NCBI GenBank assembly: GCA_902728285.1
Contig: CACVBU010000004.1
Span: 667,909 to 731,908, forward strand
DNA from: Clytia hemisphaerica
Taxonomy: Eukaryota; Cnidaria; Hydrozoa; Leptothecata; Clytiidae
DNA: 64,000 bases
Reading direction: 5' to 3'
Under the pieces are notes generated by a model. The model saw only the letters and a list, made by a program, of their open reading frames with translations, searched no databases and was not told the origin of the DNA. Numbering within the stretch: the stretch's first letter is position 1; the number at the start of each line of letters is the position of its first letter. Shown here one piece after another: positions 32,701-41,700 of the stretch. A program made the translations under genes and the position numbers.

Positions 32701-35700
32701 AAGAGCGTAGATCACCCCTCAAACACTCACTACCTTTATAATCAATTGCTAATGTGTTTAATTGTTGTTTGGGTTGATTAGAAAACGAAAAGTAAATAAT
32801 CCTTGAATTTGTAAAGGTCGATATACCCGTACTCTGTACGTCATAGTGTCCTTCAGGGTCTCTTCCCCCCCATGCCTAGAATGAAAATTTTCCATTCCCC
32901 CCCCCCTCATTTTTCCCCACCCTGCCTCCGAAAATTTTTCTTTCCCCCCCCCCTCAAGCATAAAATTAAAAAGCTGTAATTTGATGAACTTAACGCTTAT
33001 TGTTTTCCCTAAGGTAGTTCTAATTCAAGAATATATGGAAAGGATGGTTGTTTTTAAACCATAATATTAATAAAACTAAGCATTATGCCTGGCTTCAAAA
33101 AAAATTCTTTCCCCCCTATACGTCCTTTTGACCTCAAAACCCGTTCCCCCCTGAATCCAGGGGGGGGGGACACTATGTACGTACTCTGTACGTTTATCGC
33201 TTCGTAGTACACTCTGTGCGCATTGTCTGTTTGATAAGAAAATTCCCGTACGGAGACCTCTGCGATGAAGTATGATTTATAAATAGCAACACTTATCTCA
33301 TCGTCCCCCCTCTCTCACCAACACTCCATCGCAGCGGTCGGTTTAAAAAATCTCAAATGAGAAAAGACAATGACAATAGACCCATACGGCAATGGGTATA
33401 AATATACGCGGGACAACAGCAGGATAAACAAAGTCAAACTAAATTACATAGTGCAGAAAGGGGTCTGATCCCCCCCTTCTTAAATGATCCCCCCTTCTTG
33501 GCATCCCCCCCAACCTTTAAAAATACCTATCCCCCAAGGATTTCGGGCTAAATTTTTATGGTAAAAAGGGAAGGGAAACAGTAAAGAAAAATTAAGTCTG
33601 GCAAATATATACCACTTTTTAGTGAAAATATTTCATGCAGACCAAATTTCATAACAGTGCTGGAAAATAATCTACAATATATGTAAGCCCCCCTTCTTAA
33701 ACGATCCCCCCCTCCTTGCTATCCCCCCCTCCTTGCTATCCCCCCCCCTTTTTAGTGAAAATTTCTGATCCCCCCCTTCTTCACTTTTTTGGAAGGTGTC
33801 ACCCCCCCTTAAGAAAGGGGGGGGGGGGTTCGAACTATGAATTAATTTATTCTATGACCTCTTCAAATATATAAAGTAAAGTTCACGATAATTAGCCGGA
33901 AATAGCCGAAAAAATGCTACACTAATTGTAGGAAATTATAATAAAAAGCCACACCTTGACCGCAGATATCAGAATGTCGAGCTTAAAATAATGAGTCATT
34001 AGAAAGACAAATTGGTACAAATTTAATTGCTATTGAATTACCCCGTTTATTGAATGCCAAAATTGAAGAAATTTAGACATACTCAACAATGTACGTTTTT
34101 TTTAATAAGGAACCAACCTATTTATCCAAAAAATTTCAGCATCAAAGTTCCTTATCGAGTTCCTCGTTTACTTAGCTGTTTAAGATTGGTATAGTTGGTT
34201 TTGATTTGATCATCAATATTTGATCAACTTTTTGTTCAGGTTTAACTCTTACCGTTCCTATAGGGCCATTTTGAGCCTCAAGTTCCTTATACACGTTTTT
34301 TTATAAGAACATCGAAAGATTTTTGAAGCCTTTAGATGTTCTTCACTTTTTGAGTTCAAAGCCTAAAAATGTTTTTATCATGTTCTTATGTTCACCATTT
34401 AGTGGGCATTTTTGTCAATTTTCTTAAGAAATTGGCCTTTTTCGAGTCCGCAAAGCCTTAAAAATAATCTCAACTTGTTCTTGATATTTTGGCCATCGAA
34501 GCCTTGTGTTCTTATATAGTTTGTTCTTATAAAAACATGAATACTCTAAAAGCATTTAATCGTATGCACATGAACATGCATTGTGGGATTGTTTCAGGAG
34601 TATTACCTTGTCGAAAAAAACTTAGTCGGCCCTAAGTGACTAAATTTTGGCTTGGTGACTAAAATTAGGGCCGACTAATAATTAAGGCCGACTAAAATTA
34701 AGGCCGATTAAGTTTTGGCAGATAAGGTACAATAGAATACCCTCGAGGAATTCCTAAGAGATTTCTATTGTAATACTCCCGAAACATTCCCACGATGCAT
34801 AGCTCTTTTAGAAAAATCAAAAACTGCGATAAGATCTATTGAAGCAATATCATCTTTTTCGCAGCTTGCAATCTAATTAATTATTGTAATCTAGCGACTA
34901 AATACAGAAAATCAAGTTAATGGAAAGTTAACCAACGTAACTATAAGAAAATGTATCTCAATTATCTCTAAATACCACAGGAAAAACTACTTTGCAATTA
35001 TAGACAATAACACGTTTTTTTTATAAGAACAAACTATATAAGAACATTATGCTTTATGGTTAAGATATTAAGAACAAATTAAGAAGATTTTAAAACTTTA
35101 AAAATTTCTTAGCAAAATGGACAAAATTTCTCATGAATTCAGGAACAATATAAGAACAATTTTAGGCTTAAAACTAACAAAAAAACATCCAAAGGTTTTA
35201 AAATTTTTTAAATGTTCTTATAAGAAAAAAGCTTGTACCATTCGAGTATAAATACAGGGTGGAAATTCTCCACCTCAACCACACACGCAAACAGTTCAAA
35301 ATAAGGAGATTTGCCGTCAAGACAGTTTGACCTCAGTGCGAGTAAACTTTGAACCACAGACAAACACGTTTGGTACTACCAAAAATCAAAACATCATGCA
35401 TGTGAAATTGTTTTGTTTAGTATTCCTGATGCTTGCTTTTGTGATGACAAATCGTAAGTGTTATTAATATCGCTGTTAATAAGCTTGATCACAGAAAAGG
35501 ATTTATCTGCAAAACGCCTACACGTGTTTTGTATAAGAACATCCGAGATTTTTTAAGCCTTCAGATGAGCTACATTACATATTCCTGGTTCTTCATATAA
35601 ACAATGTATTTTTCCCTCTGATTGAAATGGGGTAAGTGAAAAATTATATTTTCCTTAAAAATTTCAGGTGATAGAGAAAGCAGCCAATCAAACAAGATGG

Positions 35701-38700: not shown

Positions 38701-41700
38701 GCAATAAGGAGAAAAACGGAAACAGTCCGTTAGAAAATATAATGTTTAGCGAAAAGGCATAACGATAATTTCATCATCAATTGTTGATGGGGAGAAGGAA
38801 GGGGAGAAGGAAAAAAAGATGTAGAAAGTTCCGGTTGCTGAAATCAGTTTTATTGACAATCGAATCATGCTTGATGGTCGGGAATTGCTATCAATGATGT
38901 TTTGTTTTTTTAGAGAAAAAACAAAGATATGTTAGGAAAAAGTCCAATGAAAATCTGCAAAAACGGCGATTTCCGGCATATTTCCGACATTCTCGGCCGG
39001 AAAAAAAAAATTCTCAAAAAATCGAACTCGGTCATGTTTTGAGCATTGCAAAATACGCATCTTTCTGCAAAAAAATGTTTTTCGAAAATCGCGCTCGTCA
39101 CATTTTAGGTATTGTCTTTTTGCATCAGTGTGCAAAATTTCATAAAAAAATATAAAGTACAGCTCGAGAAATTCAAGAAATACTGTCTTTCCGACGAAAA
39201 TAGGTTGTTCCGGCGATTTTTAAATAGTTCCGGCTTAAAAATCAATTTTATTGAAAATTGAAACATACTTGATGGTGGGCATTGCTATTGATAATGTTTT
39301 TGAATGAAGAAAAAACCAATTGTAAGGAAAAAGTCCAATGAAAATCCAGAAAAACGGCGATTTCCGGCATTTTCGGCCAGAAAAACATTTTTCTCAAAAA
39401 CCGGACTCGGCCATGTTTTAGCGTTAGGCATTGCCATTTTTCATCTTTGTGCCAAAAACCAGAAAAAACTAATGAGTCAATCTCGAGAAAAGCTGGTAAC
39501 AGACGAACGAACGAACGGACGGACAAAGGTTTATAGGACCTCCACGTAGGTCCAATAAGATTGCCTTCAGATCTGTCCGAAATAACAATAATGAAAATAA
39601 ACCTCAGGAATTTGAATACGGACGTCAAAGCTTACAATTTATTTGTTTATTATTGAGTGAAGCAATTATGAGCCGGGGTAAGATAACAAAACAAGATAAT
39701 TACTCAAAGTTATTAAATTGACAGTATTGATACACGTTTTTTATAAGAAAAAACTATATAAGAACATAAGACTTCGATGGCCAAAATGCTAAAAACAAGT
39801 TAAGAACGTTTTAATGCTGTGGGTACTAAAACACTCAGTTTCTTAGGAAAATGGACAAAATGCTCACAAAATTGGGAAGATAAGAACATGTTAAGAACAT
39901 TATTAGGCTTAAAACTACATAGTTTTGAGAACATCCAAAGGCTTCAAAAAACTTTGGATGTTCTTATAAAAAAATGTGTGAGGTATTAAGGGATAATTGC
40001 CATCTAACGAAGTATCACGAATCAAAGATTTAGTACAGAGAGCGCGAGAGAGAGGAAGATTTTCACCTTCAGCCACACATCAAGCTGTGTGATTCACATT
40101 CAAAAGAAGCATAATTTACTAAACTGTTGTGTGGCCTTCAACGAAGAATCAAGGGAGCATGGGCAACATGAAAATTGTATGTTTGGCATTTTTGGTATTA
40201 GCCTTTGTGATGACTAACACAAGTAAGTGCCATCTTTTCTCTAATTAACGGACATTATCGGAAGGGGGCGTCCGCTAGTCCTGAACCCCCGAATAGACGG
40301 GGGAAGATTCAAATAAATAAGAAAAATCTATTTCAAATAGACGTATAAAATTGGGGGTTAAACCCTATGGTTTGAGCGATTTCAATCTTGTAAGGTCGAT
40401 TTTTACACTGCTATGACCAAATTGAAACGTCTCAATTTAGCAGGGGGGCTAAAAAATTTGATCCAAAACATAGTGACACATTAAACTACGTAGCCAATCA
40501 AATTTCTTTTCAGTGGAGGATATACATGGACAACATCGAAGCTCAATGACATCAATGGTTCACGCTTCTATTAGTGGAGAAGATTTTGAAGACATTGAAT
40601 TCACAGGTTAGTGTTAAGAAACTTAAAAAAAAAAGTTCAATAATGGTTGAAGCTGCCATGGAGGCAAGAAGTCCAACCTCAAAAGTCTGAGAAGACAAAG
40701 ACTTCTTTTACTTTTGTTAATTTAATTTTTTCAGACACTGATTTAGACCTTTTTCACTTGTAGATAGAATCCTTGTCCACTACAAGAAAAGGGGTCAATC
40801 TTACATTTTTAATTTAGCAAAGTATTTCAAGTTTTAATTTTTCAGACACTGTATTTTGACCTTGTGCCTCGTTGTCAGCGATGAGTTTTAATGGGGTTCA
40901 GCTCTTTGGCTGTCGAATGAAAAATTAATTCCGGTTAATTCTAGTTTCTATGCCGGTGAATTCTTAGCAAACCCAGTGTATTGATTAGCGTAAGGTGGCT
41001 TGAGGTGGCGATCCGAATTTTGGGACCTAGGTGTAATGTATTTACTTCGTGCCTTAGACGGACGAAATTTGCCGTTTGCCGGGTCCAACAAATAAGACGC
41101 CTGAGTTTTTTTAGTGGTTCTTTCTTCATTTCAAGAAGCTTACGTTTGAAATGCAATGGCAAATCAACAAAGTTTGATTGACCAAGTTTTTAATTTCTGG
41201 ATGAGCATTTAAAACTGTAATAAAACTTTTAAAACATTCAAAATTTTTATCTTATTTCAGTTGGCAAAGCTGACTTTAGAGCTGAGTTCAAGGTGAGACG
41301 TCGAAGAAGACATTGAAAGAAATAAAGAAACTAATGGGGACAAGTCTTTGCTATCTAATGGTACGTGTAGAAGTGGGGGGAGGGACTTATTGAAATGTTA
41401 TTGTAATATAATTTTTGCTCCAATACCGTACATGTATATTGTTTATTAAAGATAATCTTACATTATGAGGAACCTTAAAGATATACTTTTTTATAAAAAA
41501 CTGTAAAACTCTTTTTTAATTTTTTATAGTTGTATTCGCAACAGAATTTTGTTCTATCACTAAAGAAAAATAATAGTGTTGATAATCTCAATAATTCGAA
41601 TCTGTAATTCGATAAGAATTCATAATCTGTTGGAAATCGAATTTGAGAGACAGTCAATGGTACTATGGTCGTTTTCGTTATATTATGCTTTGACCGTCGA

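Follow-up and report, generated by a model that had tools for sequence, protein, structure and literature searches.

An old tandem pair of genes for predicted secreted cationic peptides, arminin-like in layout, in the hydrozoan Clytia hemisphaerica

In a 64,000-nucleotide stretch of the genome of the leptothecate hydrozoan Clytia hemisphaerica (assembly GCA_902728285.1, contig CACVBU010000004.1, positions 667,909 to 731,908; hereafter the window, to which all coordinates refer), two plus-strand genes, here called A and B, lie in tandem, each encoding a short precursor in three exons. An earlier reading of the letters alone (the sequence-only reading) had put forward both frames, with exon number and intron phases common to the pair, and on rebuilding from the window both spliced as described, yielding precursors of 71 (A) and 70 (B) residues across four introns that are all GT-AG and phase 1 (214 and 1029 bases in A; 291 and 654 bases in B). 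Gene A comprises a signal peptide exon (35396-35453; 58 bases), an exon encoding an acidic segment of net charge -4 (35668-35772; 105 bases), and a last exon encoding a basic tail of net charge +4 that ends in GKK and includes the stop codon (36802-36854; 53 bases), all three placed by the rebuilt splice and a database protein. Its counterpart B comprises a signal peptide exon (40159-40222; 64 bases), a predicted acidic exon of net charge -6 in the same phase 1 as in A (40514-40606; 93 bases), and a predicted last exon of net charge +6 that encodes a basic tail with the terminus RRRRRH and includes the stop codon (41261-41316; 56 bases). Directly 3' of the B stop codon lies an AATAAA polyadenylation signal (41321-41326); downstream of the A stop codon, the nearest ATTAAA and AATAAA are found at 37258 and 37992, respectively.

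Searched against a protein database, precursor A matched one record only, the uncharacterised C. hemisphaerica protein UniRef A0A7M5UNE4, which is identical to the precursor at 71/71 residues (100%). The record is 113 residues long, does not begin with methionine, and covers both junctions of gene A exactly as predicted. Its residues 1-42 correspond to an in-frame reading of the gene A 5' leader (35270-35395), after a stop codon at 35249, and its first residue, encoded at about 35270, falls 23 bases downstream of the beginning of a TATA box (TATAAATA; 35247-35254, with TATAAA at 35247). Because it starts within the leader and spans both junctions, the record has the appearance of a transcript-based model, and it looks like an automatic translation of a transcript. 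We regard the reality of gene A as virtually certain. The sequence-only reading had proposed transcripts across the junctions as its test, and this protein provides such coverage for A, if indirectly, while exons 2 and 3 of B stay predictions; the genes had also been called undescribed, a description that needs amending for A, given its anonymous UniRef entry, and that stands for B, for which no entry was found.

The clearest link between the two genes is the first exon. When sites were scored by mean BLOSUM62 similarity to both copies (each including its self-match), the signal exons of A and B reached 75 and 74, compared with 28 for the runner-up in six frames of the window and 31 for the best other site in 264 kb, a neighbourhood made up of the window and 100 kb on either side (2397 of its letters being N), consistent with the proposal of a common signal peptide carrying LAFVMTN. 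At the DNA level, the two exons share an ungapped 49-base match of 71% identity, and by these comparisons exon 1 of gene B is plainly a paralogue of exon 1 of gene A. A similar 5' leader had also been claimed; this received weak support, with the observed similarity reached by 32/500 shuffles for a wider stretch and by 12/1000 for the leader without a repeat element. Over the 16 codons that align between the two signal exons, differences at codon positions 1, 2 and 3 numbered 5, 1 and 9, so that conservation is mainly at the level of protein. For these same codons, the NG86 method gave a nonsynonymous divergence (dN) of 0.21 with a synonymous divergence (dS) that was not computable, and YN00 gave a dN of 0.44 and a dS of 0.42. 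Since the two methods disagree, the numbers are soft, and whether the signal appears to be under purifying selection varies with the method chosen.

Beyond the signal exon, likeness between the genes falls to the level of shuffled sequence, as had been suggested for the peptides. Intron comparisons remained within the range of 200 shuffles each (intron 1, 17 versus a maximum of 27; intron 2, 31 versus a maximum of 33), the similarity of the second exons was reached by 674/2000 shuffles in local and 795/2000 in global alignment, and that of the third exons by 1442/2000 and 1791/2000, respectively. This pattern suggests that the duplication is old, and that the signal peptide was kept while the remainder drifted or was driven apart; positive selection for change and relaxed constraint are inseparable with the present data. 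On this basis we read A and B as the products of an old tandem duplication, both of them coding for protein.

The status of gene B required separate consideration, given that no protein in the database shared three five-residue words with it (the query had one residue too many where its last two exons join). Exon chains across the B locus were ranked by a crude splice-site score with an acceptor cut of 2, which left five chains. The top chain is that of the sequence-only reading (score 13.6), closely followed by one ending in a candidate alternative last exon on the plus strand at 40764-40837 (13.5). With a lead of only 0.1, the RRRRRH tail is likely, short of proof. The limits of the score are exposed by gene A, whose real chain was missed at equal thresholds, its acceptors scoring -0.5 and 1.3. 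If B were a decayed or silent duplicate, with a gene model that owed everything beyond the conserved signal exon to chance, then the missing database match and the existence of four other chains, one nearly tied, would be expected. Against this, the signal exon is intact, the donors of B come second and third among 70 and its acceptors sixth and first among 80, all five chains contain exon 2, the top chain reproduces both the phases and the basic tail of A, and a polyadenylation signal immediately follows the stop codon. We therefore consider a decayed B improbable, and hold that gene B is probably a real expressed gene; that its last exon is exactly as given here is somewhat less assured, if still favoured. 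Within intron 2 of gene B, we also observed two stretches of about 31 bases (40721-40751 and 40833-40863) that are 91% alike and both resemble a 3' splice site (TTTTCAGACACTG); these possibly mark alternative last exons of B.

Searches of the whole assembly (417,433,876 bases in 951 contigs) point to a family of two. A nucleotide pattern for LAFVMTN, written in the code of the International Union of Pure and Applied Chemistry, has exactly two perfect sites in these 417 Mb, namely A and B. A single mismatch was allowed at 27 further sites; none of the 20 examined belonged to a signal exon related to the pair (scores of at most 32, compared with 74-75 for A and B), and the matched letters of the other seven were identical to those of an examined site. 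With up to two mismatches, the pattern matched 549 times in total, close to the 508 of a reversed-pattern control. Within the 264 kb neighbourhood, no third signal-exon site scored above 31, and a DNA search of the assembly with exon 1 and leader of B (40060-40235) returned only the self-match. Protein searches of the assembly with A and with B each returned only the query's own three exons; given that the search with A missed even the signal exon of B, a more diverged member could escape detection. The view that the pair belongs to no recognised family was upheld by domain and structure databases: Pfam gave no row for A and, for B, a single row below threshold (12.5 bits versus a cut-off of 25; E 0.18), NCBIfam gave no row for UniRef A0A7M5UNE4 or B at E 1, and the PDB gave no match at E 1 with B as the only query. 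Six core peptide strings of the pair and the accession of A were also absent from the main texts of the literature searched (supplements left out).

Both precursors carry a hydrophobic core of 12 residues near the N-terminus (mean Kyte-Doolittle hydropathy 3.2-3.4), and from this hydropathy, the sole basis on which the signal peptides were judged, A and B are very probably secreted. Behind the signal, the proposed layout of an acidic middle followed by a basic tail was recovered in both, from -4 to +4 in A (as extreme in 976/20000 shuffles) and from -6 to +6 in B (57/20000), and no cysteine occurs after residue 20 in either. A structure model of UniRef A0A7M5UNE4 (mean predicted local distance difference test score 62.7; predicted template modelling score 0.29) was uninformative beyond the signal helix.

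The basic residues raise the question of whether A and B are precursors of neuropeptides or other signalling peptides, in which basic runs would serve as convertase sites with the active peptide before them, or in which the glycine before KK in A would give an amidated end. Precursor A offers RK at residues 53-54, RRR at 63-65 and the terminal GKK, B offers its RRRRRH end, and an account of Clytia planulae describes an HFRIamide precursor with a signal peptide, a glycine and a dibasic site (PMC12225738). Yet no post-signal peptide is common to A and B beyond chance, a glycine precedes a dibasic pair in A only and no glycine precedes the basic run of B, and neither precursor contains repeated peptide copies. 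The conserved peptide beside a glycine and dibasic site that characterises cnidarian neuropeptides was not found in the pair, and for signalling peptides conservation between the paralogues would presumably be expected. We consider a signalling role unlikely.

Cysteines bear on a different set of secreted proteins. The same account of Clytia planulae reports very high expression of short secreted peptide genes in two clusters of epidermal type, as well as PF1, a group of short, taxon-restricted secreted proteins with roles unknown and conserved cysteines (PMC12225738). In being short, secreted, taxon-restricted and from the same species, PF1 proteins resemble A and B, and both observations lend some credence to a role in structure, mucus, adhesion or stinging cells for a taxon-restricted pair of this kind. 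PF1-type cysteines are conserved, however, and A and B have no cysteine after residue 20; we regard such a role as unlikely too. Among Hydra proteins, periculins and NDA-1 are likewise secreted antimicrobial peptides, and periculins have a bipartite charge and clustered genes, but both kinds are cysteine-rich, with eight cysteines in periculin-1 and ten in NDA-1; NDA-1, first considered as an acidic and arginine-rich peptide, was dropped as a counterpart for this reason. The conserved cysteine pattern of the NDA-1, periculin or PF1 type is thus found in neither A nor B after residue 20.

A closer likeness is to the Hydra arminins. Hydra antimicrobial peptides have been described as small, signal-bearing and bipartite in charge, and as forming clustered paralogous families (PMC10945409), and arminins in particular possess a negative N-terminal region and a poorly conserved positive C-terminal region. 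Arminins 1a and 1c share with A and B a short precursor (88 residues, compared with 70-71), a hydrophobic signal, an acidic middle and a basic, cysteine-free C-terminal part, so that the full order of signal, acidic region and basic cysteine-free C-terminal region is present in both Clytia precursors (the signal by hydropathy). Hydra arminins and the Clytia pair are also alike in their poorly conserved C-termini and their clustered or tandem paralogues, and the GKK end of A recurs in arminins 1a and 1c, in place of which B ends in RRRRRH. Layout of this kind has been used before, in Placozoa: AMP1-4 of Trichoplax were called arminin-like on the basis of a signal, an acidic N-terminal and a basic C-terminal region (PMC12013895); compared by description only, these match A and B in layout and are longer, at about 150-250 residues.

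Should A and B be Clytia arminins, descended from the same ancestral gene as those of Hydra and diverged beyond sequence recognition, then the order of parts, the lack of cysteines, the tandem placement and the shared GKK would find an explanation. Full-length B also scored well against arminins 1a and 1c (reached by 10/2000 and 27/2000 shuffles), a result that we discount, since most of it comes from pairing one hydrophobic signal peptide with another, and shuffling offers no control for that. Full-length A gave no such score (339/2000 and 1657/2000), and without the signal no homology to arminins 1a and 1c was shown for either A (1785/2000 and 1597/2000) or B (464/2000 and 307/2000). Furthermore, a published screen reports no homologues of antimicrobial peptides in Hydractinia or Clytia and describes arminins as confined to Hydra (PMC10945409). 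Common descent with arminins is accordingly highly improbable in our assessment. The pair may be termed arminin-like in layout, its membership of the arminins is not shown, and at the level of sequence the published confinement to Hydra is uncontradicted by these comparisons of A and B with arminins 1a and 1c.

Our preferred reading, held tentatively and by analogy, is that A and B make up a diverged orphan family of two genes for secreted cationic peptides, with host defence as the most likely role. The hydrophobic N-terminus would take each precursor into the secretory pathway, where the acidic segment of exon 2 may neutralise the basic segment of exon 3 inside the cell until processing frees a short, cysteine-free cationic C-terminal peptide. 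With its GKK end, the peptide released from A could be amidated. By its layout, the freed peptide would most likely target microbes or act at an epithelial surface, like Hydra arminins. The layout match makes the antimicrobial guess somewhat better than the sequence-only reading could know, and it is still a match of layout alone; a host-defence role as such we would put at somewhat below an even chance.

Several observations weigh against this reading, among them the lack of a database protein for B and the YN00 estimate given above. The charge layout is generic and fits peptide hormones too. The tails of A and B comprise 17-18 residues with charges of +4 and +6, compared with a mature arminin part of 31 residues and +11 to +12 (+12 in arminin 1a), and lack the strongly amphipathic stretch of arminin 1a, the best 11-residue helical moment being 0.41 in A and 0.40 in B versus 0.86. 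The helical moments of the tails were reached by 407/1000 (A) and 515/1000 (B) shuffles and are not beyond chance; that of whole arminin 1a was reached by 735/1000. Finally, only two copies were found, whereas H. vulgaris AEP has nine arminins, most of them on chromosome 5, and 28 periculins, although the same work infers that the ancestral arminin set numbered two (PMC10945409).

Surrounding the pair, an element of about 240 bases with inverted ends of the TTTTTTATAAGAACA type was observed at 34291-34540 (minus strand) and at 35016-35230, 36166-36405 and 39736-39980 (plus strand), among other sites, and thus immediately upstream of both genes as well as inside intron 2 of A. The element resembles a non-autonomous DNA transposon. 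A special role for the copies upstream of A (35016-35230) and B (39736-39980) was entertained and dropped, as the element is common, the copy at 36166-36405 giving 42 blastn matches in 264 kb (fragments and self included). Elsewhere in the window, two plus-strand matches to the Rfam transfer RNA (tRNA) model (7240-7313 and 54535-54608; 39 and 38.5 bits), uncalled by ARAGORN, sit in a pair of 127-base repeats of 90% identity and are probably tRNA-derived short interspersed nuclear elements. A CAP-Gly domain is encoded on the plus strand at 20651-21406 (Pfam E 3.2e-8), with CLIPR-59 as its best PDB match and KIF13B fourth; upstream on the same strand, the stretch 6087-6599 shows a weak, sub-cut-off match to KIF1B, and the two may perhaps represent a KIF13-type kinesin gene flanking the pair. 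On the minus strand, the region 53933-57298 holds an open frame with a PAS-domain kinase as its best, weak PDB match (E 0.024), and upstream of this frame, at 56276-57298, lies a 340-residue open frame with no Pfam match; perhaps this region is a PASK gene flanking the pair. Tandem arrays were also identified at 28999-29607 (99-base period) and at 44314-45461 (three units, 497-base period).

The defence peptides of Hydra serve in the literature as an example of orphan genes that arose inside one genus, in part because the screen mentioned above detected no homologues in either Clytia or Hydractinia (PMC10945409). A tandem pair with arminin layout in a jellyfish, in which the signal exon is conserved and the part after it matches no better than shuffled sequence, offers a concrete case for telling genuinely new peptides from old ones whose divergence has outpaced recognition. 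Were the genes merely an ordinary orphan pair, their value would be a small gain in annotation. Were they to share descent with arminins, an antimicrobial peptide family supposed to be specific to one genus would be older than the divergence of Hydra from Clytia, its apparent novelty being due only to the rapid evolution of all but its layout.

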